24,320 bases of DNA from a virus. The translations under genes and the position numbers were made by a program. The stretch lies in IMG/VR virus record IMGVR_UViG_3300034062_004697, positions 1-24,320 of that record. One strand, 5' to 3'. Shown here piece after piece: positions 2,460 to 23,919 of the stretch. Each line of letters begins with the position of its first letter. Positions within the stretch are counted from its first letter, which is position 1. Under the pieces are notes generated by a model. It saw nothing but the letters and a program-made list of their open reading frames with translations, was not told the DNA's origin and made no database searches.

Positions 2460-5400
2460 ATGGGTCAATCATATAGGATAAAAACCGAACTCGGGTCTAA
2501 TAAGACAATCAACGTCCAATTAGACCAAGAGTTTGAATTCTTAGAAATCTTATCGTTAAAAATACAACAAGCGGATATCTACACAAGAAGTTGTGCGGAC
2601 TATGGTGTTATTGTTGGTAGAGTTACCGCCAATAATGGGTTGGGTATACCTAATGCGAGAGTTGCGGTATTCGTCCCAATAACCAATGTTGACGAATCTA
2701 ATCCTTTAATATCAAGTATCTATCCTTATGAATCTCCTTCAGATAAAAATGAAGACGGATATCGATACAATCTTTTACCTTACGAAAAATCATATTCAAA
2801 GCACTCAGCGACAGGTACACTACCAACAAGAGCGGATTCTCTTACGGGGATAACTGCAGTTGAAATATATGACACGTATTACAAGTATACTGCCAAAACA
2901 AACGAAAGTGGGGATTACATGATAATGGGGGTTCCGTTAGGGGACCAAGCGATTGTTATGGATGTTGACTTATCCGATATTGGAGAGTTCTCACTAACAC
3001 CTCAGGATTTAATTAGAATGGGGTTGGCAACCGAAGCACAAGTTGCGGGTTCTAAATTTAGAACTTCAACAGATTTAAATTCATTACCACAAATAGTTAA
3101 TTTAGTTAAGAACGTTGAAGTTTCTCCATTATGGGGTGATGCGTCACTTTGTCAAATTGCAATAAATCGATTAGATTTTGATTTAAGAGATGATGCCAAT
3201 GTTGATATACAACCGACATCGGTGTTTATGGGATGTATGTTTTCTTCACCTGACACTCTAAGAGTAAGGAATAATGGAAGACCAAAAGATAACATGGGTA
3301 ACCTATGCGGTTTAACAACATCACCAGGTCAAATATTAGCGTTAAGACAAACAATACAACAAGATATAGATGGTAACCCTGTTTTAGAACAATATGAGTT
3401 AGAACAATCAGGAAATGTTATTGATGGTTCAGGAACATGGTTAATAGAATTACCAATGAACTTAGATTATTTTATAACTAATGAATTTGGTGAAAAAGTA
3501 TTGTCAAATGACCCAACTGTTGGAGTTCCAACAAAGGCCAAGTACCGTTTTAAGGTCAAATGGACTCAACCAAATGATTTAACTTTACAAACAAGAAGAG
3601 CTTATTATTTAGTTCCAAACGTTAAAGAATACGGATGGACAACATCATCATCAGACCCGTCAACTAGAAGTATTCCAACAACAAATAATTCTAAACAACA
3701 ACAGAGTTCTTATTATTTTGGATTGGCTTGGAGTGGTTATACTGATGGATTTATTGGACAGAAAAAAATAGAGAGACTTAATGAGATTATCGATTGCGAA
3801 GATACATTCTACGAATTTCAATTCAATAAAGTTTATACGGTGTCTTCTTTGATTGACCAATACAAAAGTGGTAGAAATATTATTGGGTCCGCGCCAGGTA
3901 GGTTTATTGGTATTAAAGAAATTGATGACCAAGATTGTGAAGATAGTGTTAACAAATTTCCTGTTAATGACGGGTTTAGAAACTTTGATTTTTTATTTTT
4001 CCTCTTCTCAATTTTAATGACGGTAATACAACCAGTAGCGTTAATCTTATTAACTATTGGGCATATTTTATTATTTTTATATAATTTAGTTTTAGACTTT
4101 TTATGTTGGCTTTCCTATGTTGGTATTAGAGTGAAAAGAGTTTTTTCTTGGTACCCATTTAAAAAATGGAGAAAGTATTGTACTAAAAAAGATTATACAA
4201 TAAGGTTACCAATGATTACTTATCCTGATTGTCAGGCTTGTGATTGTAAACAAACCCTTAAAGATAGTTCAAATAACCAAGCAACTTCAGGTGTAGATGG
4301 TGCAGGTGTTTTATCTTATCTTTCATCTTCAGACCTTTATTACGATGGATTAGCATCTAGTTATTTCTCAGGAGATACAGAAAATGGTGAGGATTGGTCC
4401 ATCATGTTTAGTGAAGCGATAGCAGGACTTGGGTTAACTTCTAATATTGGAGACCCATCAAGATATAAGTTACCTCTTTCACAACAATTAAACATTGGAG
4501 GAGGTAGATTTGTTGCATCATATGATTTACCTATTGGTGAAAGAATTAATATTTTTAATTTAAGAGAAAGTTATTTTTCAAATATTAATAAAATTAAAGT
4601 AACATTCGCAAAAGATTCCAATTTTGGAAAACATCATTATGATAATACCATAACGGTGTTATCGCAGGAGCAATTTGCTGCGGGAGATTTATTAACTTTT
4701 ATTAATATAACTGGAACTACAGATACAAATTATCTTTACAGTGCATCAACTGCCGACGGTATTATTACGGGTATTAGTGGTGAAACTTATAATGGTAGTG
4801 GAGCAACAACAATAGACGTATCTTATGCAACAACACAAGTATCAAATATTGTAACACCTGTTAGATATAACTTACCTTATGGTTCATCTGAAACTAATTA
4901 TAGATTCCCTGCGGATGTTGAGTATTACCAAGTTATTACTGCGATAACAGTATCGGACGCCGCCAAAATATGGAATACAGGTACGACACAATCTTTTGGT
5001 AATATTCTTAACAGTGTTGGTACATACATACCAGCTAAACCAAGTTTTGGAGGATGGTCGGTTGACAATGCCGTAATCAATTTTAATGCTTTTGAATATT
5101 TTGAAGGAGCAAGTTCTCAGTTTATATTAGTTTTACAGAGAGGAGTTGACCCATACTCTCCAAAATATGTTAATGAATATTCGTTAGGTAATTTATTTGG
5201 TACAAGTGAATTTGATTCGAATTGGACTGTAACCGCAGCAACAAGAGTTAACATACCAATACAAAAATTAAATAATAGTAGTATATCGGTACAATCTTAC
5301 AATCAAAATGATATGTATAATCAATCGTATTTCTTTAAACCTGGAACCACAACATCGTCAATTGCGGGACAATCGTTTTCAGGATTTAATACAACAAATA

Positions 5401-7547
5401 CGGCATATTACGGTTCGTTAGATGCAAGTATAAACCCATTACCTGTAGGGGCAACATTAGATGGTGTAGCTCCAAACAACCCTGGTACTTTAGGTTCTGC
5501 GAAAAGGATTACTCGAAGTGGGGTTTCTGCGTCTTCAGATGTTTTGGGATGTAATGCCCCATATCTGAATACCGATAGTTTATTTGTACCAAATGTAGCA
5601 GCAAATGCCACGCCAAGACTTGGGTTGACAATGTATAATAATTATGACTCATTTTTTGGGTATACAAGTAGGTTTGATGGAAACAATCGTTGGTGGAAAA
5701 TGAATTGGGGCGGTATTTTCTATTCTGTTAAAGTTAATACTTCAGGTGTTATAGGAGGGTTCATATCGTGCGTTGATTTATCTACTTTACCTAAAGTAGT
5801 ATCGATATCTTCAAATGGATTTTATAGTCCATTTTCTTCAAGTATTAAATATGATAACAGTGAAGACCTATCTGGTAGTGCGGTTATGAAAGTTAATAAT
5901 AGTGGTCTTGTTTTTGCAAGTAATTATGTTAACGACTTAGGATATTATTATACAACAAAAACTTTTTTTAGTTACAACCCATCAATGTTAATTGATAACG
6001 CTCAATTGAACGTACTAAGGACTGATAGACTACCATCGTCAGACGGATTAGATGGTGGTTCTTGGACATTAAATCCATCATTATTACAACAAAACGTTAA
6101 TTTTAATGTCTACCTAATAAATACAGACTCGGAAGATATTACATCTGATGCGTTTCAAACAGGTGCTCAAACTGTAACTGCAGATTTAGAGGGGTTACCA
6201 AACTCTATTAAAGTTTTGGAAAGTTTCGATTGTGAGGCAATGGTTGGGTTAGAATGTTACGAAGGATTTGGAGATACTTTTGGTATTAACCAATCATGTA
6301 CTACTAAAGATGCTGTTGAAAGTGGGTGTTATATGTTTTTAAGAAGACCAATAACTGACTTAGTTAAAGATTTACGTAATTTTGGAGAATGGGGATTTAG
6401 GTTTAGATTTTTTTACGGATTATGTCGAGGAGTATTATCCCAATCATTTATGAATAATTGGATTAATGGTTCACTATACGCATTCCCAATACAAGTTAAC
6501 ACATATTATAATAATAAAAATAAACCAGAGTACCCTAGTTTCCCTCGAGAAATAGTGTACTTCAATATGGATAGTAATAACTTCTATTATAGAAGTAGTC
6601 CTTGGAATGACACGTCAAATAAATTTGTTGGCAAAAGAGCAACGGACACGGGAAGTGTAAATGCCTCGAATCTTTTATACCCAACAACAATTATTAATTT
6701 AGGGATGAAAGATTATTTTTATTCTGAAATAACCTTTGACCCATCAACAAAAGGATATGTTCTACCAAATATTAATCCAACTAGTTATGGGGACACTTCA
6801 GATTTAATTAATTTATTTGTTATTTCAAGAATTACTGATGATAGTTTTTTAAAACAATTAATCCCTGCAGGTGATAATGGTATAGACCAATTATTTAGCC
6901 GACCACAAAAAAGAATCGATGGTGACTTGGCTCAATTATTATCGATAAATTCTGAAATAGGGAATGTTAATTTTTCACCTGAATTTTATGAAATTTTTCC
7001 TGGGGCAATTAACCCGACAACAATATTAGGAACTCCTAGTGACCCGATTATGGCTGTGTGGTTTTCATCTACAACAGAAGACCTTCAAACCAAAGATTAT
7101 TTAACACCAGGAAGAATTAATTTTAGAGGAACCGACAACGTCGGGTATTACCCATATCCATATGGTATTAAATCGCAATTAGTTCCGTTCTATCAATGGA
7201 GACTAGCGTCGGGTTCATCAACAATATTTGGAAATCAAAATAACACATGGGCAACAAATAGTCAGGATATTATTCAAAGTAAGTATCAATCTTTAGATAG
7301 GTCAACAACAGATACTAAATATTATTTAAATGGAACGTCCGTAGCGAATGATTTAACCGCGAGAGGGTACATATATAGTGTAGATGGGAATGTTGTAAGT
7401 TACCCAACTGTGGGTGGTCGATATACCTCAACACCACAAACTTCAAATAGATTTTTAGTGGGAGCACCATATCAATTCTATTTTGGGGTTGTTAAAGGTG
7501 AATCGGCATTAGATAGGTTTAAAACAAAATACTCATTAGATGAATAA
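2460..7547 (+). CDS. Giant structural protein with carboxypeptidase-regulatory-like domain and internal membrane hairpin; role unknown
   Basis: This 1695-residue protein lies between the J-like and I-like baseplate genes, so a structural role in the tail is likely, but the family is not recognised. The N-terminus (about 48-170) resembles a carboxypeptidase-regulatory or CnaB-like beta-sandwich: GVIVGRVTANNGLGIPNARV, then TNESGDYMIMGVPLGDQ. Residues about 511-556 are almost wholly hydrophobic (FLFFLFSILMTVIQPVALIL and onwards), long enough for two membrane helices, with P525 near the turn. They are followed at once by a strongly basic stretch (557-577, with RVKR and KKWRKYCTKK). A CxxCxC cluster follows at 591-596. 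The remaining 1100 residues look beta-rich, with Cys clusters around 1255-1290. The stop overlaps the next start by eight bases, so the two genes are probably translationally coupled. Roles such as wedge extension, tail-tip component or membrane-inserting protein are inference. Confidence 0.7.
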   Translation: MGQSYRIKTELGSNKTINVQLDQEFEFLEILSLKIQQADIYTRSCADYGVIVGRVTANNGLGIPNARVAVFVPITNVDESNPLISSIYPYESPSDKNEDGYRYNLLPYEKSYSKHSATGTLPTRADSLTGITAVEIYDTYYKYTAKTNESGDYMIMGVPLGDQAIVMDVDLSDIGEFSLTPQDLIRMGLATEAQVAGSKFRTSTDLNSLPQIVNLVKNVEVSPLWGDASLCQIAINRLDFDLRDDANVDIQPTSVFMGCMFSSPDTLRVRNNGRPKDNMGNLCGLTTSPGQILALRQTIQQDIDGNPVLEQYELEQSGNVIDGSGTWLIELPMNLDYFITNEFGEKVLSNDPTVGVPTKAKYRFKVKWTQPNDLTLQTRRAYYLVPNVKEYGWTTSSSDPSTRSIPTTNNSKQQQSSYYFGLAWSGYTDGFIGQKKIERLNEIIDCEDTFYEFQFNKVYTVSSLIDQYKSGRNIIGSAPGRFIGIKEIDDQDCEDSVNKFPVNDGFRNFDFLFFLFSILMTVIQPVALILLTIGHILLFLYNLVLDFLCWLSYVGIRVKRVFSWYPFKKWRKYCTKKDYTIRLPMITYPDCQACDCKQTLKDSSNNQATSGVDGAGVLSYLSSSDLYYDGLASSYFSGDTENGEDWSIMFSEAIAGLGLTSNIGDPSRYKLPLSQQLNIGGGRFVASYDLPIGERINIFNLRESYFSNINKIKVTFAKDSNFGKHHYDNTITVLSQEQFAAGDLLTFINITGTTDTNYLYSASTADGIITGISGETYNGSGATTIDVSYATTQVSNIVTPVRYNLPYGSSETNYRFPADVEYYQVITAITVSDAAKIWNTGTTQSFGNILNSVGTYIPAKPSFGGWSVDNAVINFNAFEYFEGASSQFILVLQRGVDPYSPKYVNEYSLGNLFGTSEFDSNWTVTAATRVNIPIQKLNNSSISVQSYNQNDMYNQSYFFKPGTTTSSIAGQSFSGFNTTNTAYYGSLDASINPLPVGATLDGVAPNNPGTLGSAKRITRSGVSASSDVLGCNAPYLNTDSLFVPNVAANATPRLGLTMYNNYDSFFGYTSRFDGNNRWWKMNWGGIFYSVKVNTSGVIGGFISCVDLSTLPKVVSISSNGFYSPFSSSIKYDNSEDLSGSAVMKVNNSGLVFASNYVNDLGYYYTTKTFFSYNPSMLIDNAQLNVLRTDRLPSSDGLDGGSWTLNPSLLQQNVNFNVYLINTDSEDITSDAFQTGAQTVTADLEGLPNSIKVLESFDCEAMVGLECYEGFGDTFGINQSCTTKDAVESGCYMFLRRPITDLVKDLRNFGEWGFRFRFFYGLCRGVLSQSFMNNWINGSLYAFPIQVNTYYNNKNKPEYPSFPREIVYFNMDSNNFYYRSSPWNDTSNKFVGKRATDTGSVNASNLLYPTTIINLGMKDYFYSEITFDPSTKGYVLPNINPTSYGDTSDLINLFVISRITDDSFLKQLIPAGDNGIDQLFSRPQKRIDGDLAQLLSINSEIGNVNFSPEFYEIFPGAINPTTILGTPSDPIMAVWFSSTTEDLQTKDYLTPGRINFRGTDNVGYYPYPYGIKSQLVPFYQWRLASGSSTIFGNQNNTWATNSQDIIQSKYQSLDRSTTDTKYYLNGTSVANDLTARGYIYSVDGNVVSYPTVGGRYTSTPQTSNRFLVGAPYQFYFGVVKGESALDRFKTKYSLDE

Positions 7548-12082: not shown

Positions 12083-15069
12083 TGGCGATAACGCAAAAGA
12101 CGACAAAATACTTTTACCCTCCAAGACCTGGTAGTGGTGCTGCAACCTTCTCTGACAATATTGTAGGATTACAAACAGTTGAGGGTGGTGGACTTACGCA
12201 AGGTAACTTTGAGTTCACAACTTCAGTGGTTGAAAAGGTTAATAGAACTTTTAGTGTTGGAGCGTTTTCTGAACCTATTAATTTAGGTGATTTAAATATT
12301 AATGATTTAGCTGAGAGTAGAAGAATTATGGCAACACAGTTTAGGGTTTATCCTAACTACGATGTGTCACAAGTCTTAAACTTCTCAATGTATGGTTCGT
12401 TGAGTAAAAGATTTCAAGTATCTATTACAAAAATTATTAATTATTTTCCAGCAGCGTTAGATGTTATTTTCACTAACTTGGATTTTACTACAGGCGCCAC
12501 TGCAACTAATATTCTTTACGACCCTGTCGAAGATGAAACTTACTTTCAAGTGAATGTTGATAGGATTAACAATCCTTTTGATATTGATTACTCAGTAAGT
12601 GCTGCAACCAACTTATCGGTTAGAGAAATACTTGTTTCTCCTTATAGAAATTTATATAACACTTACTTAGATTACTCTGTTAGTATTAATGATAACATAT
12701 ACAATATTGTCTCATTCTTACCATCGGAAAATTTAACGACAGGGTTTATTCAATTCTATGTTTCGGGGGCTCCTTTTGGTACTACCGCAACAACAACCAA
12801 TGAAAATTTTCAAATAAGACCAAACGACTTAATTACAGATAAAATATTTTCCGAAGATTTCGATGAGGTTGAAAAATTTTTATTAAATAGATTGGTAAGA
12901 CCAGAATATACAGCAGCATTCCAAGTACCCGCTCAAACTGAAAATGGGGAATTTTATGTTAAGTATCAACAAGTAACATGGCCAAAAGACGGTGGATGGA
13001 ATTTAGATATTAGGTCTTTCTTATTCGACGATTATTTAACGACATTGGAGACAATTGCCGTTGATTTAGATTCTTTTAAAAGTAATTTAATATCAAGATT
13101 TTTAGTTACAGATTCTTTAAAAGAGTTTGACACCTTAGGACAAAAAGTTGAAAAAATATTTCAAATTTATGGTAGAAGTTTTGACCAAGTAAAACAGTTT
13201 ATTGATGCGTTGTCATATATGAATTCGGTTAACTATAATCCGTCAAACGACATTCCATCACAATTACTTGTAAACTTGTCTCAAACTTTAGGATGGACTT
13301 CAAATTTTTCTCCAATTACAAATGAAGATTTTTTAAGTTCTGTGTTTGGAAATACAACAACTCCAACATACCCTGGTTATGCAAGAGCTCTAACTCCTAC
13401 GGAATTAAATTATGCTTTTTATAGAAACTTAATTCTTAATGCTGCTTATCTATTCAAATCTAAAGGTACGAGAAGGTCGATTGAGTTTTTAATGAGATTA
13501 ATAGGTGCTCCTGAATCGTTAATTGAATTCAACGAACACATATATCTTGCAGACCAAAGAATTAATTTAGACCAATTCTATACTCAATGGGCTAGTATTT
13601 CGGGAGGAACCTATGTTGAGGACACTCCAACATTTTTACCTGGTGAGACATATAAAATTAAAGGTAAGATATATTCAGGGTTTACTTCAACTTCAACATA
13701 CGAAGATGTTAATGTTAGATTAGAAGATTATCCTATTGATGCTTTAGGGTTCCCTGCCGCACCTTTAAATACAGAAGACTATTTCTTCCAATTAGGTGCG
13801 GGATGGTATGAAGTCACACCACAACACAGAAGCCCTGACCAAGTTAGAATAACAGGTAGTGTTTATACAGGTCAAAACTATGATATTCAAACAACCTTAA
13901 CTCCATTCTCATATGGTCAACCCTACTTGGATAGGTTTAGAGATTTTCCTTATATGACTGAAGGATTTAAACTAACTCAAGTAGTGGATAATAATAAATC
14001 ATGGTTAGAAGAGGACAATAGAATTAGGGTTTCTACTAACGCTGACTATAACGCCTACTATTATGTGGATAATGAAAAATTAGTATTAAACGTTAAAAAC
14101 GTTGACCTTTTCTTAAATCCATCACAAGGACTTGTTTATGACGTTTGGGAACAGTCAAAAAGATATGACTATCCGATACCTGAATCAGGTTTAACTGTCG
14201 GATATCCTGTCCCAGGTGGAGTAGATTGGACTTTTGTTAAGCCAGAACCAAAAAAGAAAACATTCTTTGAATTTTCTCAAACATTTTGGGAGAATATGAT
14301 TAATGTTAGAAATAGACAATACATTAGTGATGGTAAAACTGGAGGGTACCCAACACTTCAGTCAATATGGTGGAAGTACATTGAACAAGAACAAACAATC
14401 AATATTCCAAATAACAAGTATACGTATCAAAAATTAATTGATTACGTAGATGGTATTGGGCCTTATTGGATGAAGTTAGTGGAACAGATGGTTCCCGCAA
14501 CAACAATATGGAATACAGGGGTTAGAATGGAAAACTCTGTATTACACAAACAAAAGTTTGTTTATAGAAGACAAAGAGGATGCCAGTTCATACCAGTACC
14601 TGTTGACCCTTGTTATATTATTTCAAACATATTTGATTACACCTGTACCACGGAATTTACAGACTTTAATATATACCCATGGTTGAATGGGGATATTCAG
14701 GTTAGTAACTTCAATAGTATCTTATCAAACAGAGTTAATTCAATGTTGGCATCTAGTGGACTTACCCTAAACGATTGTATTCAAAATTCGGTTGAAAGTA
14801 ATTGGTATGTTGATTTACGAATAGCTGGTGATATTATTATACAAGAACTATTCTACACAGGGTATGGTTTAACAGACGTACCTTCAAACAGAGCTTGGAG
14901 AAACGCCTTAATTCAATACCTACCACAATTATATGACTTTGGTTATACGTATTACTTGAATGGTAATGTTTTAACAATAACTAGTCTAACGTGTACGGAT
15001 AGAAATCTTGATGAAATTCTATCATTAAATTCAGGAATAAACATCAGCATAAATTGTAAGGCTAACTAA
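12082..15069 (+). CDS. Large baseplate wedge protein with P2 gpI-like segment (gp7-like role)
   Basis: This 995-residue protein contains a segment at about residues 330-480 that fits the P2 gpI / phage tail protein I family. Residues 395-405 read LLVNLSQTLGW (compare the family's L-L-x-x-L-A-x-x-L-G-W/L), and 459-475 include KSKGTRRSIEFLMRL, the highly conserved K/R-G-T-R-R-x-(I/L)-x-x-L-L element. P2 gpI acts next to gpJ in the baseplate; in T4 the larger gp7 has an equivalent place in the wedge, and the length here is close to that of gp7 (about 1030). Flanking regions of over 300 residues on each side are unrecognised. The Cys-bearing C-terminus (from about 833) could contact the fibre proteins encoded next. 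Both gene junctions are TAATG one-base overlaps, which suggests coupled translation. Confidence 0.78.
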   Translation: MAITQKTTKYFYPPRPGSGAATFSDNIVGLQTVEGGGLTQGNFEFTTSVVEKVNRTFSVGAFSEPINLGDLNINDLAESRRIMATQFRVYPNYDVSQVLNFSMYGSLSKRFQVSITKIINYFPAALDVIFTNLDFTTGATATNILYDPVEDETYFQVNVDRINNPFDIDYSVSAATNLSVREILVSPYRNLYNTYLDYSVSINDNIYNIVSFLPSENLTTGFIQFYVSGAPFGTTATTTNENFQIRPNDLITDKIFSEDFDEVEKFLLNRLVRPEYTAAFQVPAQTENGEFYVKYQQVTWPKDGGWNLDIRSFLFDDYLTTLETIAVDLDSFKSNLISRFLVTDSLKEFDTLGQKVEKIFQIYGRSFDQVKQFIDALSYMNSVNYNPSNDIPSQLLVNLSQTLGWTSNFSPITNEDFLSSVFGNTTTPTYPGYARALTPTELNYAFYRNLILNAAYLFKSKGTRRSIEFLMRLIGAPESLIEFNEHIYLADQRINLDQFYTQWASISGGTYVEDTPTFLPGETYKIKGKIYSGFTSTSTYEDVNVRLEDYPIDALGFPAAPLNTEDYFFQLGAGWYEVTPQHRSPDQVRITGSVYTGQNYDIQTTLTPFSYGQPYLDRFRDFPYMTEGFKLTQVVDNNKSWLEEDNRIRVSTNADYNAYYYVDNEKLVLNVKNVDLFLNPSQGLVYDVWEQSKRYDYPIPESGLTVGYPVPGGVDWTFVKPEPKKKTFFEFSQTFWENMINVRNRQYISDGKTGGYPTLQSIWWKYIEQEQTINIPNNKYTYQKLIDYVDGIGPYWMKLVEQMVPATTIWNTGVRMENSVLHKQKFVYRRQRGCQFIPVPVDPCYIISNIFDYTCTTEFTDFNIYPWLNGDIQVSNFNSILSNRVNSMLASSGLTLNDCIQNSVESNWYVDLRIAGDIIIQELFYTGYGLTDVPSNRAWRNALIQYLPQLYDFGYTYYLNGNVLTITSLTCTDRNLDEILSLNSGINISINCKAN

Positions 15070-17204
15070 TGGCATCATTTGATTATAACTTATCGATAAC
15101 AGGAGACTGTAGTAATACCAATAATGGTATTATAAGTTTATCCTTATTAGGAGGTACTCCTCCATACACTGTACAATGGCAGTCACCTTTGACTCAAGTT
15201 GATTTGGTTACAACAGGGGCTTCGATAGTGACAGGATTATCTGCGTCAACATATACCGCCAGAGTTAACGATAGTACATTACCTACCAACCAAGAATTCT
15301 ATATTAATGTACCCGTTTCGAGTGGAGTTTGTGCGTCAATTCTTTCAGTACAAGATACAACTTGTAATTCGGATAATGGGTCGGTTGTCGGTACATCAAC
15401 ATCACAATATTCGTCAACAAATTTCTATTTGTTGGGGATGGATAATAGTTTAATTCAATCTGGTGTTACAAACACACCTGAATTTACTTTTGGGGGATTA
15501 AGTGCGGGTACCTATTTCCTTCTTGCTGAAGATTTGGGAGGATGTTCAGGTATAACACAAAGTTTTATTATCGATACTTCTGAAGAGTTTAGTTTTGGTT
15601 TGTACGTAGTTCCTAACTCTAGTTGCGGTGGAGTACCTATTGGTAAAATTACCGTAACAGGGGAAACAGGGTTAGCTCCTTTTACTTATCTGTGGAGTGA
15701 TGGTCAAACGGGTAGTACTATTACAGGGTTAACAAAAGGTAACTATTCAGTCGCTGTGACAGATGCTTACGGATGTACAAAATCAATGGAAGGGTCGGTA
15801 ACTGACGTTAACGTTATTGGACTTGGACTTATAACTTCAGTATCACCATCATGTTTACAAAGTAATGGGTCAATTAGTTTAACCATTACAGGTGGAACCG
15901 CGCCATTTTACTATTCAGCCTCAACAGGTAATGTTGAAATATCTTATGGTAGAACATTCTCAATATCAGGATTATCTGCGGGAGATTATAACTTCCAAGT
16001 AACTGATGCAGGATTTTGTCAGACATTTGCGGGAACGACTTTACAAACGCCTGGAGGAATAACTTCAGTATCTGTAAATAATCAAAATTCAACTTGTTCA
16101 AGTACTGATGGCTCAATTCAGATTTCAGTTGTTGGAGGAACAACACCTTATACATATACTTTAATCTATCCATCAGGAGCACAAACAAACATCAACAATT
16201 CACAAACAACTCAATTATTTGACGGATTAGGAAGTGGAACTTATACAGTTGCGGTTTCTGACAATTCGGGATGTTCGTATATTCAAGAGATAACAATAAT
16301 CACTGAGAATAAATTTACGATATCTACAGACGTTGTGTCAACAAGTTGTAACCAAAATAATGGACAAGTTACCATCTATTCAACAACAGGGGGAACAATG
16401 CCTTTGGATTATTCTGTTGACGGAATTTTCAATGTGATAGACACAAACTTAAGTGCGGTAACCTTTAATAATTTATCCGCAGGAACACATACCGTTTCAG
16501 TGACAGATTCTGATGGGTGTACTCAAACTGCAAATATTTTAATACCATTTAGCCAACGATTAGATTACTCATTATTCACAACATCTTGTGGTAGTGGTGA
16601 TAGTGGTAAAATAACTGCCTTTATTAGTTCAGGTGAACCACCGTTTAGTTTTAATTGGTCGGACAACGTACCGAATGAACCACAGCAAATACAAGTAACA
16701 GGTTTAACAGGGGGGTCATATAGTTTAACTGTTGTTGATGCTAACGGATGTACACTTTCGAGAAACGCTACAATAACTTGTAATAAAAACTATGCTTCTT
16801 ATCAAACATATGTAATGGGTGCAGAAGTATTCAATATTACGTCACCAACTAAATTTGGTTTATTACAAATGTTAAACGAAGGATTCTTTGATTTAACAAC
16901 AGGAAATACTAGTTGTGATTTAATTAGTGCAACATTCACTGCGAAAGTGTCGGTAAACCCTGCAGGACTAACTGCACAACAAGAATTTTTTACTTCAACA
17001 TCTTTGGTACAGGCTCCAAGTGATAATACATGGTACAACACAGTCAAATCTTTGTTACTAAGTATTCCTGGTGTGGGTAACGTAACTATAGACCAATTAA
17101 ATAATCAAATAACGATTGAAACAAGTAGAAATAATACTTCATTAGAAGGACAAGAAATTGTTTTAGACTTAGTAATTGTTTATGACATAATCTGTTTATC
17201 ATGA
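15069..17204 (+). CDS. SprB-repeat surface protein, seven Ig-like repeats
   Basis: Residues 5-571 form seven tandem repeats of 76-87 residues, each led by a Cys (14, 99, 186, 262, 343, 427, 507). The pattern is C-x(4-6)-G-x-I-x(5-6)-G-G-T-x-P-(Y/F)-x-(Y/V)-x-W/S, then G-L-(S/T)-x-G-x-Y-x-(V/L)-x-V-x-D-x-x-G-C. This is the signature of SprB repeats, known from the mobile adhesin of gliding Flavobacterium and related Bacteroidota. The last 140 residues (572-711) are a different domain without the pattern and may anchor the protein to the tail. There is no signal peptide or type IX secretion signal, which fits a virion protein rather than a cell-surface adhesin. The gene starts with a TAATG overlap and ends with an ATGA overlap into the next gene. 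A role in host contact is inference. Confidence 0.8.
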   Translation: MASFDYNLSITGDCSNTNNGIISLSLLGGTPPYTVQWQSPLTQVDLVTTGASIVTGLSASTYTARVNDSTLPTNQEFYINVPVSSGVCASILSVQDTTCNSDNGSVVGTSTSQYSSTNFYLLGMDNSLIQSGVTNTPEFTFGGLSAGTYFLLAEDLGGCSGITQSFIIDTSEEFSFGLYVVPNSSCGGVPIGKITVTGETGLAPFTYLWSDGQTGSTITGLTKGNYSVAVTDAYGCTKSMEGSVTDVNVIGLGLITSVSPSCLQSNGSISLTITGGTAPFYYSASTGNVEISYGRTFSISGLSAGDYNFQVTDAGFCQTFAGTTLQTPGGITSVSVNNQNSTCSSTDGSIQISVVGGTTPYTYTLIYPSGAQTNINNSQTTQLFDGLGSGTYTVAVSDNSGCSYIQEITIITENKFTISTDVVSTSCNQNNGQVTIYSTTGGTMPLDYSVDGIFNVIDTNLSAVTFNNLSAGTHTVSVTDSDGCTQTANILIPFSQRLDYSLFTTSCGSGDSGKITAFISSGEPPFSFNWSDNVPNEPQQIQVTGLTGGSYSLTVVDANGCTLSRNATITCNKNYASYQTYVMGAEVFNITSPTKFGLLQMLNEGFFDLTTGNTSCDLISATFTAKVSVNPAGLTAQQEFFTSTSLVQAPSDNTWYNTVKSLLLSIPGVGNVTIDQLNNQITIETSRNNTSLEGQEIVLDLVIVYDIICLS
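15081..16781 (+). repeat. Seven SprB-like protein repeats (diverged at DNA level)
   Basis: Leading cysteines at residues 14, 99, 186, 262, 343, 427 and 507 mark seven units. The GGT-x-P-(Y/F) element is clear in units 1, 4 and 5 (GGTPPYTVQW, GGTAPFYYS, GGTTPYTYT) and altered in others (ETGLAPFTYLW, GGTMPLDY, SGEPPFSFNW). DNA identity between units is low, so the duplications are old, unlike the collagen-like repeats further right. Confidence 0.75.
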
Positions 17205-19287: not shown

Positions 19288-22200
19288 ATGAGCTTTAACT
19301 ATCAAAATCCATTAGCAGGAACAATCTACGAAGCACCAGTCGGAGTTGCTCTTGACAATAGTACAGGTACGAATTTCAGTGTATACAACATAGGTGGATA
19401 CATGGAAGTATATTCGTATGCTGACTTAAATTATGTTATCCCGCCAGGTACTGAAGGAACAGTACTTTATTCGGGAAACACAATCCCAATATCATTTGCA
19501 TATAACGCACCTTTTAGTATACCCAACGTATTAACTTTATATAGTGATGAGATATCATCAGGAAGAAGAAGGTTAGGTATGATGGTGTATGTTATTTCAG
19601 CAGATACTACCTATCAATATGTCATAGACAACTATGTAACATTATGGAATAATGCACAAACCTCTGGAGCTCTTGGATTTGACGGTACAAACTGGACATG
19701 TGAAGACAGTACCGAAGCGGGAGCTTTGTTTTTAAATGCTTGGACAGGGTCAACAATTGAAGGTGTTAGTGGGGCGACTCATGAAAACGCAAGATGGAAA
19801 GTTGCAAATATGAACGACACTGTTATTACAGGAGGAACATATTTTTCTGCAACAACTACTTTACAATTATATGAAAACAACGGACAAACAGTAACAATCA
19901 CAGGATTTACAGGTACAGTAACGGGAGGGACTTATGATAGTGGAACTTCAACGTTAACCCTTAATAATAGTGATGGTTTAAATGTCTCAATAACAGGAAT
20001 TACTTCAGGTTCTGGTTCAGCCTTATCGGTTGGTGACGGGATTACGACAGTTAACCCTGTATCAGGAATAACATTCAATGGTGCAACAGTAACAAACGAT
20101 GGTGGTGGAAATATTACCGTAACAATAACAGGAGGTACTTCAGGTACAAGTGGTACATCAGGTACTTCAGGAATAGACGGAACTAGTGGAACAGATGGTA
20201 CTTCAGGAACTTCAGGTTCATCAGGTACAACAGGAACTAGTGGTACTTCAGGAATAGATGGTACATCAGGTACTGACGGAACAAGTGGAACAGATGGTAC
20301 ATCAGGTACTGACGGAACAAGTGGAACAGATGGTACATCAGGTACTTCAGGAATAGATGGTACTAGTGGAACAGATGGTACTTCAGGTACAACAGGAACT
20401 AGCGGAACAGATGGAACAAGTGGAACAGACGGTACTTCAGGTACAACAGGAACTAGCGGTACTTCAGGAATAGACGGAACTAGCGGTACTTCAGGAACAG
20501 ATGGTACTTCAGGAACAGATGGTACTTCAGGAACAAGTGGAATAGATGGAACATCAGGTACAGATGGTACTAGCGGTACTTCAGGAATAGATGGAACAAG
20601 TGGAATAGACGGTACTAGTGGTACTTCAGGAATAGACGGAACTAGCGGAACAGACGGTACTTCAGGTACAGATGGAACTAGCGGAACAGACGGTACTTCA
20701 GGAACTAGCGGAACAGACGGTACTTCAGGAACTAGCGGAACTGATGGAACATCAGGTACTTCAGGATTAAGTGGGGTTAACGGAACAAGTGGTACTTCGG
20801 GAACAACAGGAACTTCGGGAACAACAGGAACATCAGGTTCAAGTGGAACAACAGGAACTTCGGGAACAACAGGAACATCAGGTTCAAGTGGAACAACAGG
20901 AACATCAGGTACTAGTGGAACTTCAGGTACTGACGGTACTAGTGGAACTTCAGGAATAGATGGTACTTCAGGTACTACAGGAACATCAGGTTCGTCAGGT
21001 ACAACAGGAACTAGCGGAACTTCAGGGACAAGCGGTACAGATGGTACATCAGGGACAACAGGAACATCAGGTAGTTCAGGTACAACGGGAACTTCAGGAA
21101 CTAGCGGTACAGATGGAACTTCAGGGACTAGCGGAACAGACGGTACTAGTGGAACAGATGGTACTTCAGGTACAACAGGAACTAGTGGTACATCAGGAAC
21201 AGATGGTACTTCAGGTACAACAGGAACTAGCGGTACTTCAGGAATAGATGGAACTAGTGGAACAGATGGTACTTCAGGTACTTCAGGAACTAGCGGTACT
21301 TCAGGTATAGATGGAACAAGTGGTATTGATGGTACATCAGGTACTTCAGGAATAGATGGTACGAGCGGAATAGATGGTACAAGTGGTACTTCAGGTATTG
21401 ATGGAACATCAGGAACAAGTGGTATTGATGGTACATCAGGAACAAGTGGAATAGATGGTACTTCAGGAACAAGTGGAATAGACGGTACTTCAGGAACAAG
21501 TGGAATAGACGGTACTTCAGGAACATCAGGAATAGACGGTACTTCAGGAACATCAGGAATAGACGGTACTTCAGGAACATCAGGAATAGATGGTACTTCA
21601 GGTACAAGTGGTACTTCAGGTACTTCAGGAACAAGTGGAATAGACGGTACTTCAGGAACATCAGGAATAGACGGTACTTCAGGAACATCAGGAATAGATG
21701 GTACTTCAGGAACAAGTGGAATAGACGGAACTTCAGGTACTTCAGGAACTAGTGGAATAGACGGTACTTCAGGAACATCAGGAATAGATGGTACTTCAGG
21801 AACAAGTGGAATAGACGGAACTTCAGGTACGAGCGGAATAGATGGTACAAGTGGTACTTCAGGTATTGATGGTACTTCAGGAACAAGTGGAATAGACGGA
21901 ACTTCAGGAACATCAGGAATTGATGGTACTTCAGGTACTTCAGGAATTGATGGTACTTCAGGAATTGATGGTACTTCAGGAACAAGTGGAATAGACGGAA
22001 CTTCAGGTACTTCAGGAATAGACGGAACTTCAGGTACTTCAGGAATTGATGGTACTTCAGGAACAAGTGGAACAGATGGTACTTCAGGAACAAGTGGAAT
22101 AGACGGAACTAGTGGAACAGATGGTACTTCAGGTACAGACGGAACTAGCGGTACTTCAGGTACAGACGGAACTAGTGGAACAGATGGTACATCAGGAACA

Positions 22201-23919
22201 GACGGAACAAGTGGAACAGATGGTACATCAGGAACAGACGGAACAAGTGGTACTTCAGGCACTTCAGGTACTTCAGGAATTGATGGTACTTCAGGTACTT
22301 CAGGAATTGATGGTACTTCAGGAACTAGCGGTATAGATGGTACGTCAGGAACAAGTGGAATAGATGGTACATCAGGTACTTCAGGAATAGATGGAACATC
22401 AGGAACTACAGGTACTTCGGGTACTTCAGGAATAGATGGAACGTCAGGAACATCAGGAACATCAGGAATAGATGGTACATCAGGTACTAGCGGAACTTCA
22501 GGAATAGACGGTACTTCAGGAACTAGCGGTACAAGTGGTACTTCAGGAACTAGCGGTATAGATGGCACGTCAGGAACAAGTGGAATAGATGGTACATCAG
22601 GTACTTCAGGAATAGATGGAACATCAGGAACTACAGGTACTTCGGGTACTTCAGGAATAGATGGAACATCAGGAACATCAGGAACATCAGGAACATCAGG
22701 AACATCAGGAACATCAGGAACTACGGGTACTTCAGGGATAGATGGAACATCAGGAACTACAGGTACTTCGGGTACTTCAGGGATAGATGGAACATCAGGA
22801 ACTACAGGTACTTCGGGTACTTCAGGGATAGATGGAACATCAGGAACTACAGGTACTTCGGGTACTTCAGGAACTACAGGTACTTCAGGAACTAGCGGAA
22901 CAAGTGCTGAGTATATTGGAATATCAAATGATACAATATCATTATCAGGATTAACAGTCGGTAATAATATTACATTAACAACAAGTGTTGGATTATCTTA
23001 CACAACAGCACAACATGTGATTGTTGCAAATAGTACTGTGAATAACTTTCACGGAAACGTTGTTTCGTACAATCCTGTTTCAGGTTCTCTAACACTACAA
23101 GTTACGGACATTAGTGGTTCAGGAGTATATTCAACGTGGGATACTAATTTAGATGGACCTAAGGGTGATAACGGTACTTCAGGAACTAGTGGAACTTCAG
23201 GAACTAGTGGAACTTCAGGAACTAGTGGAATAGATGGTACTTCAGGGACAACAGGAACAAGTGGTTCATCAGGAACTAGCGGAACATCAGGGTCTTCAGG
23301 GACAACAGGAACAAGCGGTACTTCAGGTTCATCAGGAACTAGTGGTACAAGTGGTACATCAGGTTCAACAGGCACAAGTGGTACCTCAGGAACTTCAGGA
23401 ACAGATGGAACAAGTGGTACGGATGGAACATCAGGTTCATCAGGAACAACAGGTACAAGTGGTACAACAGGTACAAGTGGTACAAGTGGTACAACAGGTA
23501 CATCAGGTACTTCAGGTACTAGTGGTTCGTCAGGAACTTCAGGTACTTCAGGAACAACAGGAACAAGTGGAACTTCAGGTACAACAGGTACTTCAGGAAC
23601 CTCAGTTGCAGTAGGAGGAACACTTAACACAATTGTTAAATTCACTTCAACAGATACTATTGGAGATACTACAACACCAATTGCTGAGGTAACAGGAGGA
23701 ACAGGAAATACAATAGTTATAGGACAAACAACAAGAACAACCGCAAACGCAATATTCGAAATATTTGGAACAAGAGGAATCATGTTCCCAAGATTAACAG
23801 AAACTCAGAGAAATGGTCTAACGATGTCAGCAGTTGATGTGGCTTTAATAGTATATCAAACGGACGGAGACGAAGGACTATATATCTATAAATCAGGTGG
23901 ATGGGTACAAATTATATAA
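19288..23919 (+). CDS. Giant collagen-like tail fibre protein, 1543 aa
   Basis: Five parts can be seen. Residues 1-282 are a globular N-terminal region, with repeated strand motifs ([20 protein letters not shown]), that probably attaches to the baseplate. Residues 283-1206 are 308 uninterrupted Gly-X-Y triplets, mainly [12 protein letters not shown] and GSS. Residues 1207-1289 are a non-repeat island ([20 protein letters not shown], ending [14 protein letters not shown]) of a type I recognise from other collagen-interrupting phage fibre domains. Residues 1290-1439 are 50 more triplets starting GPKGDN. Residues 1440-1543 are a C-terminal tip with [15 protein letters not shown] and [12 protein letters not shown], as seen at the ends of many tail fibres. 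Homotrimeric triple-helix assembly is the expected structure. The start is an ATG after an A-rich spacer (AAAAAAAGAAC). A long antisense open frame across it is a repeat artefact. Confidence 0.85.
22312..22693 (+). repeat. 157-base segmental duplication inside the collagen array (22312-22468 and 22537-22693)
   Basis: The two copies, 225 bases apart, agree at 155 of 157 positions by eye. The differences are GGT versus GGC near the start (22339-22341 versus 22564-22566) and ACG versus ACA further on. Both substitutions are synonymous. The shift of 225 bases equals 25 Gly-X-Y triplets, so the reading frame and the triplet phase are preserved. This is a recent duplication compared with the rest of the array. 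Confidence 0.85.
22663..22716 (+). repeat. Six perfect copies of the nine-base unit GGAACATCA
   Basis: Six identical Gly-Thr-Ser units stand in direct tandem at 22663, 22672, 22681, 22690, 22699 and 22708. This is the only such pure nine-base run in the array that I found, and it is the likeliest site for slippage of whole triplets. Confidence 0.9.
22735..22869 (+). repeat. Three perfect copies of a 45-base unit in the collagen array
   Basis: Copies at 22735-22779, 22780-22824 and 22825-22869 are identical base for base. Each encodes five triplets: [15 protein letters not shown]. Complete identity, including rarer codons such as GGG and TCG, shows very recent tandem expansion. Adjacent sequence on both sides holds further partial copies. 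Confidence 0.92.
23155..23604 (+). repeat. Collagen-like Gly-X-Y array 2: 50 triplets
   Basis: The array begins GPKGDN, the only classical collagen-style opening seen here, and continues with [12 protein letters not shown] and GTD units, ending just before the C-terminal fibre tip. Unlike array 1 it has a Pro and a Lys at its first triplet. Length is 450 bases, 150 codons. Confidence 0.93.

Follow-up and report, generated by a model that had tools for sequence, protein, structure and literature searches.

We found that a giant protein encoded among baseplate wedge genes carries a long internal hydrophobic segment, which is predicted to form a single helix, is kept across a large family of phage proteins and is absent from one clade. 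It may belong to a two-protein membrane-gripping module, consisting of the wedge-cluster giant with its lipid-facing helix and Cys-rich base and of a small CxC helix protein, which would insert into the host envelope at infection and would have been discarded as a unit by one lineage of huge phages. We give this reading somewhat less than an even chance, and it is undescribed in the literature and libraries searched. Phage baseplates are viewed as soluble machines that contact the cell through fibres and spike. If the reading is true, many environmental huge phages hold the bilayer directly, by means of a conserved lipid-type helix and a matched small partner, and the clade devoid of the module provides a natural comparison for asking what role the module plays.

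The window, that is, the whole stretch of viral DNA analysed, spans 24,320 nucleotides and contains the ORF of the giant protein (1695 aa; nt 2460–7547), which belongs to an unnamed family. The gene lies directly 3′ of those for a gp25-like baseplate wedge protein (nt 2–520, its 5′ end cut by the window; PHROG 261, E = 2.2e-18; Pfam GPW_gp25, E = 4.8e-11) and a gp6/gpJ-like wedge protein (nt 526–2364; PHROG 6, E = 2.5e-23; Pfam Baseplate_J, E = 1e-7; TIGR02243, E = 1.6e-16, below its cut-off). These genes, and all features of the giant protein given below, are on the plus strand. The arrangement is that of a contractile-tail baseplate cluster, and a distant relative (L081) keeps the same gp25–gp6–giant order. 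Phage_sheath_1 matches were found in five of seven relatives, although weakly (E = 2.4e-7 to 5.8e-6, below the curated cut-off); they are compatible with a contractile tail. A baseplate role of the giant protein is likely from its gene position, and it is placed among the wedge proteins by gene order alone. It resembles T4 gp7 and P2 gpI in being encoded with gp25 and gp6 homologues and in being a large multidomain protein with cysteines. It differs in having no detectable sequence or fold match to T4 gp7, P2 gpI or Cis12 in PHROG, Pfam, profile-versus-PDB or Foldseek PDB searches, and a separate, weakly gp53-like protein is encoded elsewhere among the tail genes.

The protein matched nothing in PHROG, Pfam or NCBIfam, its profile matched no PDB sequence at E below 0.01, and tblastn with two seeds returned no relatives among INPHARED phages. 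Relatives in IMG/VR number at least 488 by one seed and at least 593 by profile, on contigs reaching 412 kb. They include a second clade from rumen and gut, approximately 30% identical to the window protein, which was reached via one contig of a Paludibacteraceae MAG. A public family member with a name is UniProt A0A8S5LA66 (34% identity; Foldseek E = 2.5e-49), an uncharacterized protein of Myoviridae sp. ctPuP5 whose entry records no function.

The hydrophobic stretch that the sequence-only reading had noticed at residues 511–556 (nt 3990–4127) is real: it reads FLFFLFSILMTVIQPVALILLTIGHILLFLYNLVLDFLCWLSYVGI, with D546 as the sole charged residue and P525 where it was claimed. Its 46-residue Kyte-Doolittle mean of 2.03 is the maximum of the protein and exceeds the highest value among 2000 shuffles of the protein (1.70), while some shuffles equal or surpass the best 19-residue window of 2.44 (shuffle maximum 2.98). 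Thus, it is the length of the stretch, and not its peak, that goes beyond chance. No comparable segment occurs in the other ORFs of the window, where the next best is gp6 with 1.67. Both parts described as following the stretch are also present, namely a basic run with nine K/R and no D/E at residues 557–577 (+9; nt 4128–4190) and a CxxCxC cluster at C591, C594 and C596. The positive flank was nevertheless rejected as a conserved feature, since the 25 residues immediately past the segment have a median net charge of +2 among window-clade members and +1 among those of the rumen clade; the basic run is strong in the window phage, weak across the family and mostly particular to this phage.

To the N-terminal side, residues 1–490 (nt 2460–3929) form the most conserved core of the family, with 80–90% column agreement over most of its length and a well-folded, beta-rich AlphaFold2 model that includes an Ig/transthyretin-like region (Foldseek: CNA-B pilins and PA1324, 3qec). 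Foldseek against the PDB yielded just Ig/TTR-like and generic beta-rich matches; those to pilins and cholesterol-dependent cytolysins have query TM-scores of at most 0.12 and were taken as generic beta-rich similarity. The core is followed by a near-invariant lead-in motif at residues 498–510 (nt 3951–3989; NKFPVNDGFRNFD), which in rumen relatives takes the form N-x-P-x-P-[YF]-N-N. Beyond the helix, a conserved Cys motif occupies residues 583–596 (nt 4206–4247; LPMITYPDCQACDC), in which Y588, P589, C591, C594 and C596 do not vary among 16 diverse members of the window clade. Further downstream, NNWING at residues 1332–1337 (nt 6453–6470), in which W1334 and G1337 are invariant, resembles D-W-x-N-G, a motif found after the module in rumen relatives (as DFYNDWxNG); this correspondence was read by eye. 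Residues ~1001–1100 (nt ~5460–5760) are a lineage-specific insertion of about 100 residues, which most relatives lack (column agreement near 0).

Counting the segment as kept when a 19-residue window at the same place exceeds 1.6, we found it in 271 of the 280 relatives, including those with as little as about 30% identity. In 50 of 50 aligned close relatives the order is NKFPVN[DE]GF[RK]NFD, hydrophobic stretch, YP[DE]C; four window-clade members have approximately 38 extra, largely hydrophobic residues inserted at the segment. In the rumen clade, the segment likewise comes after the N-x-P-x-P-[YF]-N motif, and all 72 aligned helix-bearing sequences have C517 and N531 (window numbering). Between these two clades of ~30% identity the sequence of the segment varies and its hydrophobicity stays constant. 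The segment is thus real and under selective maintenance.

To describe its shape, we used an AlphaFold2 monomer model of residues 1–760 (127 sequences; mean pLDDT 76.5). As the model shows, residues 511–552 (nt 3990–4115) form one continuous helix of 42 residues with pLDDT around 78–87, bounded by low-confidence linkers on both sides, while the N-terminal 490 residues are mostly strands. A helix of at least 20 residues, nearly uncharged and uniformly hydrophobic, is therefore predicted by this model and not the buried core strands of a soluble domain, which had been named as the outcome that would speak against a membrane segment. In each clade, the moment of column-mean hydrophobicity peaks at exactly 100 degrees (shuffle p ≤ 4e-4), and it holds one phase over 40 residues, indicating a single helical phase through P525. 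Hence the proposed two-helix hairpin with a turn near P525 was rejected on the grounds of both the model and the moment. Polar or small residues occur at 517, 521, 524, 528, 531, 535, 542 and 546, spaced mostly by three or four and lying on one face, with S517, T521, Q524, H535, N542 and D546 constituting the conserved stripe and the remainder being hydrophobic. This pattern is the reverse of that in a soluble coiled coil; it characterizes helices that pack within a membrane or else within a hydrophobic bundle, and it does not discriminate between these two.

In most rumen-clade loci, the interval separating gp6 from the giant gene encodes a protein of about 80 aa with an M-x-C-N-C-K start and a long hydrophobic helix (examples at L232:4758-4991, L251:4748-4987 and L081:7736-7999). 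AlphaFold2 models residues 23–61 (about 39) as one continuous helix, with pLDDT 87–96 over most of it; the protein has no convincing family match and is absent from Pfam and PHROGs. In the window clade, a profile search found no copy in four long contigs. A DNA pattern found none in five contigs; being strict, it failed to pick up known copies in other places, and the profile result therefore carries more weight. By way of speculation, ACDCK (593–597) of the window's giant protein may replace the ACNCK start of the small protein, CxC alone being common to the clade. At L284:4666-4983 and L208:5550-5996, the slot where the small protein is expected is occupied by an ORF carrying an ECQGEQH-type endonuclease-like motif, which looks like an insertion.

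The position of the small protein, immediately upstream of its presumed client, would also suit a role in assembly, in which helix and small protein dock the baseplate under construction to the inner membrane of the infected cell, on its cytoplasmic side, or the small protein is a chaperone covering the helix until assembly. There are precedents: hydrophobic parts of the TP901-1 tape measure have been linked to chaperone binding (PMC5099701), T6SS baseplates are recruited to a membrane complex (PMC4604203), and the Streptomyces CIS needs the membrane protein CisA (PMC12237407). However, a single spanning helix, as modelled by AlphaFold2, would place the conserved C-terminal 1100 residues across the membrane, finished virions must be soluble, and a chaperone does not require such strong hydrophobicity; overall, we regard an assembly role as improbable, though membrane docking during assembly is still a serious rival.

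Next, we identified nine contigs of large rumen phages (L217–L225, up to 401 kb) whose giant protein is devoid of the hydrophobic segment; L221 is cut by its contig end and was assigned to this set through the tree. In a quick, midpoint-rooted tree of the N-terminal domain, which has eight helix-less tips (L217 being a near-copy of L218), the eight fall together in one clade (SH-aLRT 97), nested within a larger supported group (99) that also contains 27 helix-bearing members. Since the helix-less sequences form one nested clade, the simplest reading is that the helix was lost once. The linker in this clade is 59–67 aa long with zero Cys, versus 121–259 aa with at least four Cys in 35 helix-bearing proteins. 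The small protein is affected as well, its best hydrophobic window being 0.8–1.5 versus 1.7–3.5 elsewhere, and most members retain its Cys start. As the helix, the Cys-rich linker and the hydrophobicity of the small protein changed together, the two hydrophobic helices are tied to each other; the joint loss is, however, a single evolutionary event. A compensating hydrophobic segment was sought in the 2100–2570-aa tail protein of this clade, but compensation is not supported. One genome alone, that of the helix-less phage G006, has such a segment, at residues 1053–1076 of its 2208-aa tail protein (L299:394-7014; Kyte-Doolittle 2.16), which is not seen in clade members with a readable ORF.

These observations suggest that helix and small partner act as one baseplate module, either membrane-engaging or tightly packed and hydrophobic. 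For the latter, the helix copies, joined in the rumen clade by the helix of the small protein, would form a hydrophobic bundle inside the baseplate that never meets lipid; we consider this unlikely, yet a serious candidate. Spacing of the polar and small residues by three or four suits helix packing, and a helix buried in the baseplate would be conserved to the same degree and be lost jointly with the partner helix in the same way. In addition, both helices have about 40 residues, more than a bilayer requires, and the excess of the window helix over bilayer thickness counts against a lipid-facing reading. On the other hand, the helix is hydrophobic around most of its circumference, so that greasy surface would remain exposed even with two or three helices bundled together; AlphaFold2 puts the helix between low-confidence linkers, although a monomer model is unable to show a partner.

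By analogy with known systems, we tentatively favour the segment as a lipid-facing helix of a membrane-engaging baseplate module in a large group of uncultured, probably contractile-tailed huge phages, an assignment whose odds we put somewhat short of even. In the closest working parallel, the thylakoid-anchored injection system of the cyanobacterium Anabaena, the baseplate protein Cis12 contacts the thylakoid membrane and helices of Cis13 penetrate it (PMC8894136). There, too, a baseplate-cluster protein bears an extra membrane-directed segment (a putative amphipathic helix in Cis12), a second, separate protein has a real membrane helix (Cis13), and the two, both at the baseplate, are often conserved together. 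Unlike in that system, it is the giant protein that bears the hydrophobic helix here, with the CxC protein of about 80 aa as its partner; similarity in sequence or fold was not detected, and the machine here belongs to a phage, which has to exit the cell. A further likeness is offered by CisA, which crosses the membrane once and also serves a contractile machine (PMC12237407). Tape-measure proteins with transmembrane helices (diffocin CD1366 and TP901-1; PMC10996793, PMC5099701) are similar as virion proteins whose membrane-type helices are sheltered until infection, whereas they lie in the tail tube and get ejected, and the giant protein is encoded with wedge proteins. We rejected the giant protein as a tape measure itself, for it is encoded after gp6 and its N-terminal part is rich in beta strands, not coiled-coil.

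With the segment read as a lipid-facing helix, the helices of several copies, together with the small partner where present, would pack via their polar and small faces and would be sheltered on flexible linkers in the virion. Once the baseplate opens on the cell, they would enter the facing bilayer, most likely the host outer membrane, and keep the baseplate pinned there as the sheath pushes the tube across. The Cys cluster would stabilize the helix at its base, possibly by means of a metal ion. The outer rather than the inner membrane follows from a wedge ring on a Gram-negative host, the position of the ring and the type of host each being presumed.

The sequence-only reading had instead proposed that the segment enters the host inner membrane after contraction and lines the DNA path. 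A polar stripe could line a pore, and no other strongly hydrophobic segment was seen in the window ORFs or, within the tail region of G001, in those structural ORFs that we examined. The geometry is nonetheless unfavourable: in T4, wedge proteins of the gp25/gp6 type ring the tube at the cell surface and the tube itself is driven inward (PMC3004832), so a helix of the wedge ring would stay at the surface. The hairpin is unsupported by the model and the helical moment, and phages of Gram-negative hosts, T4 and T5 among them, function with little or no transmembrane region in the tape measure (PMC10996793). Moreover, homologues without the stretch, which that reading had accepted as counter-evidence, do exist as one clade of large phages; since the helix is absent there, it cannot be universally needed for DNA entry and is non-essential to the machine. 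We therefore hold an inner-membrane DNA channel to be very improbable.

Two other genes of the window deserve mention. A 711-aa tail-region protein (nt 15069–17204) contains SprB repeats (Pfam E = 4.3e-27), a name that comes from a gliding adhesin of Bacteroidota; the repeats hint either at the identity of the host or at an adhesin acquired by borrowing. One GTDB genome contig, binned as Paludibacteraceae, matched the giant family, which gives weak evidence for a Bacteroidota host. A 1543-aa protein (nt 19288–23919) has repeated stretches matching many tail-fibre and collagen-like PHROG families, and inside its gene lies a minus-strand ORF of 878 aa (nt 19932–22568).
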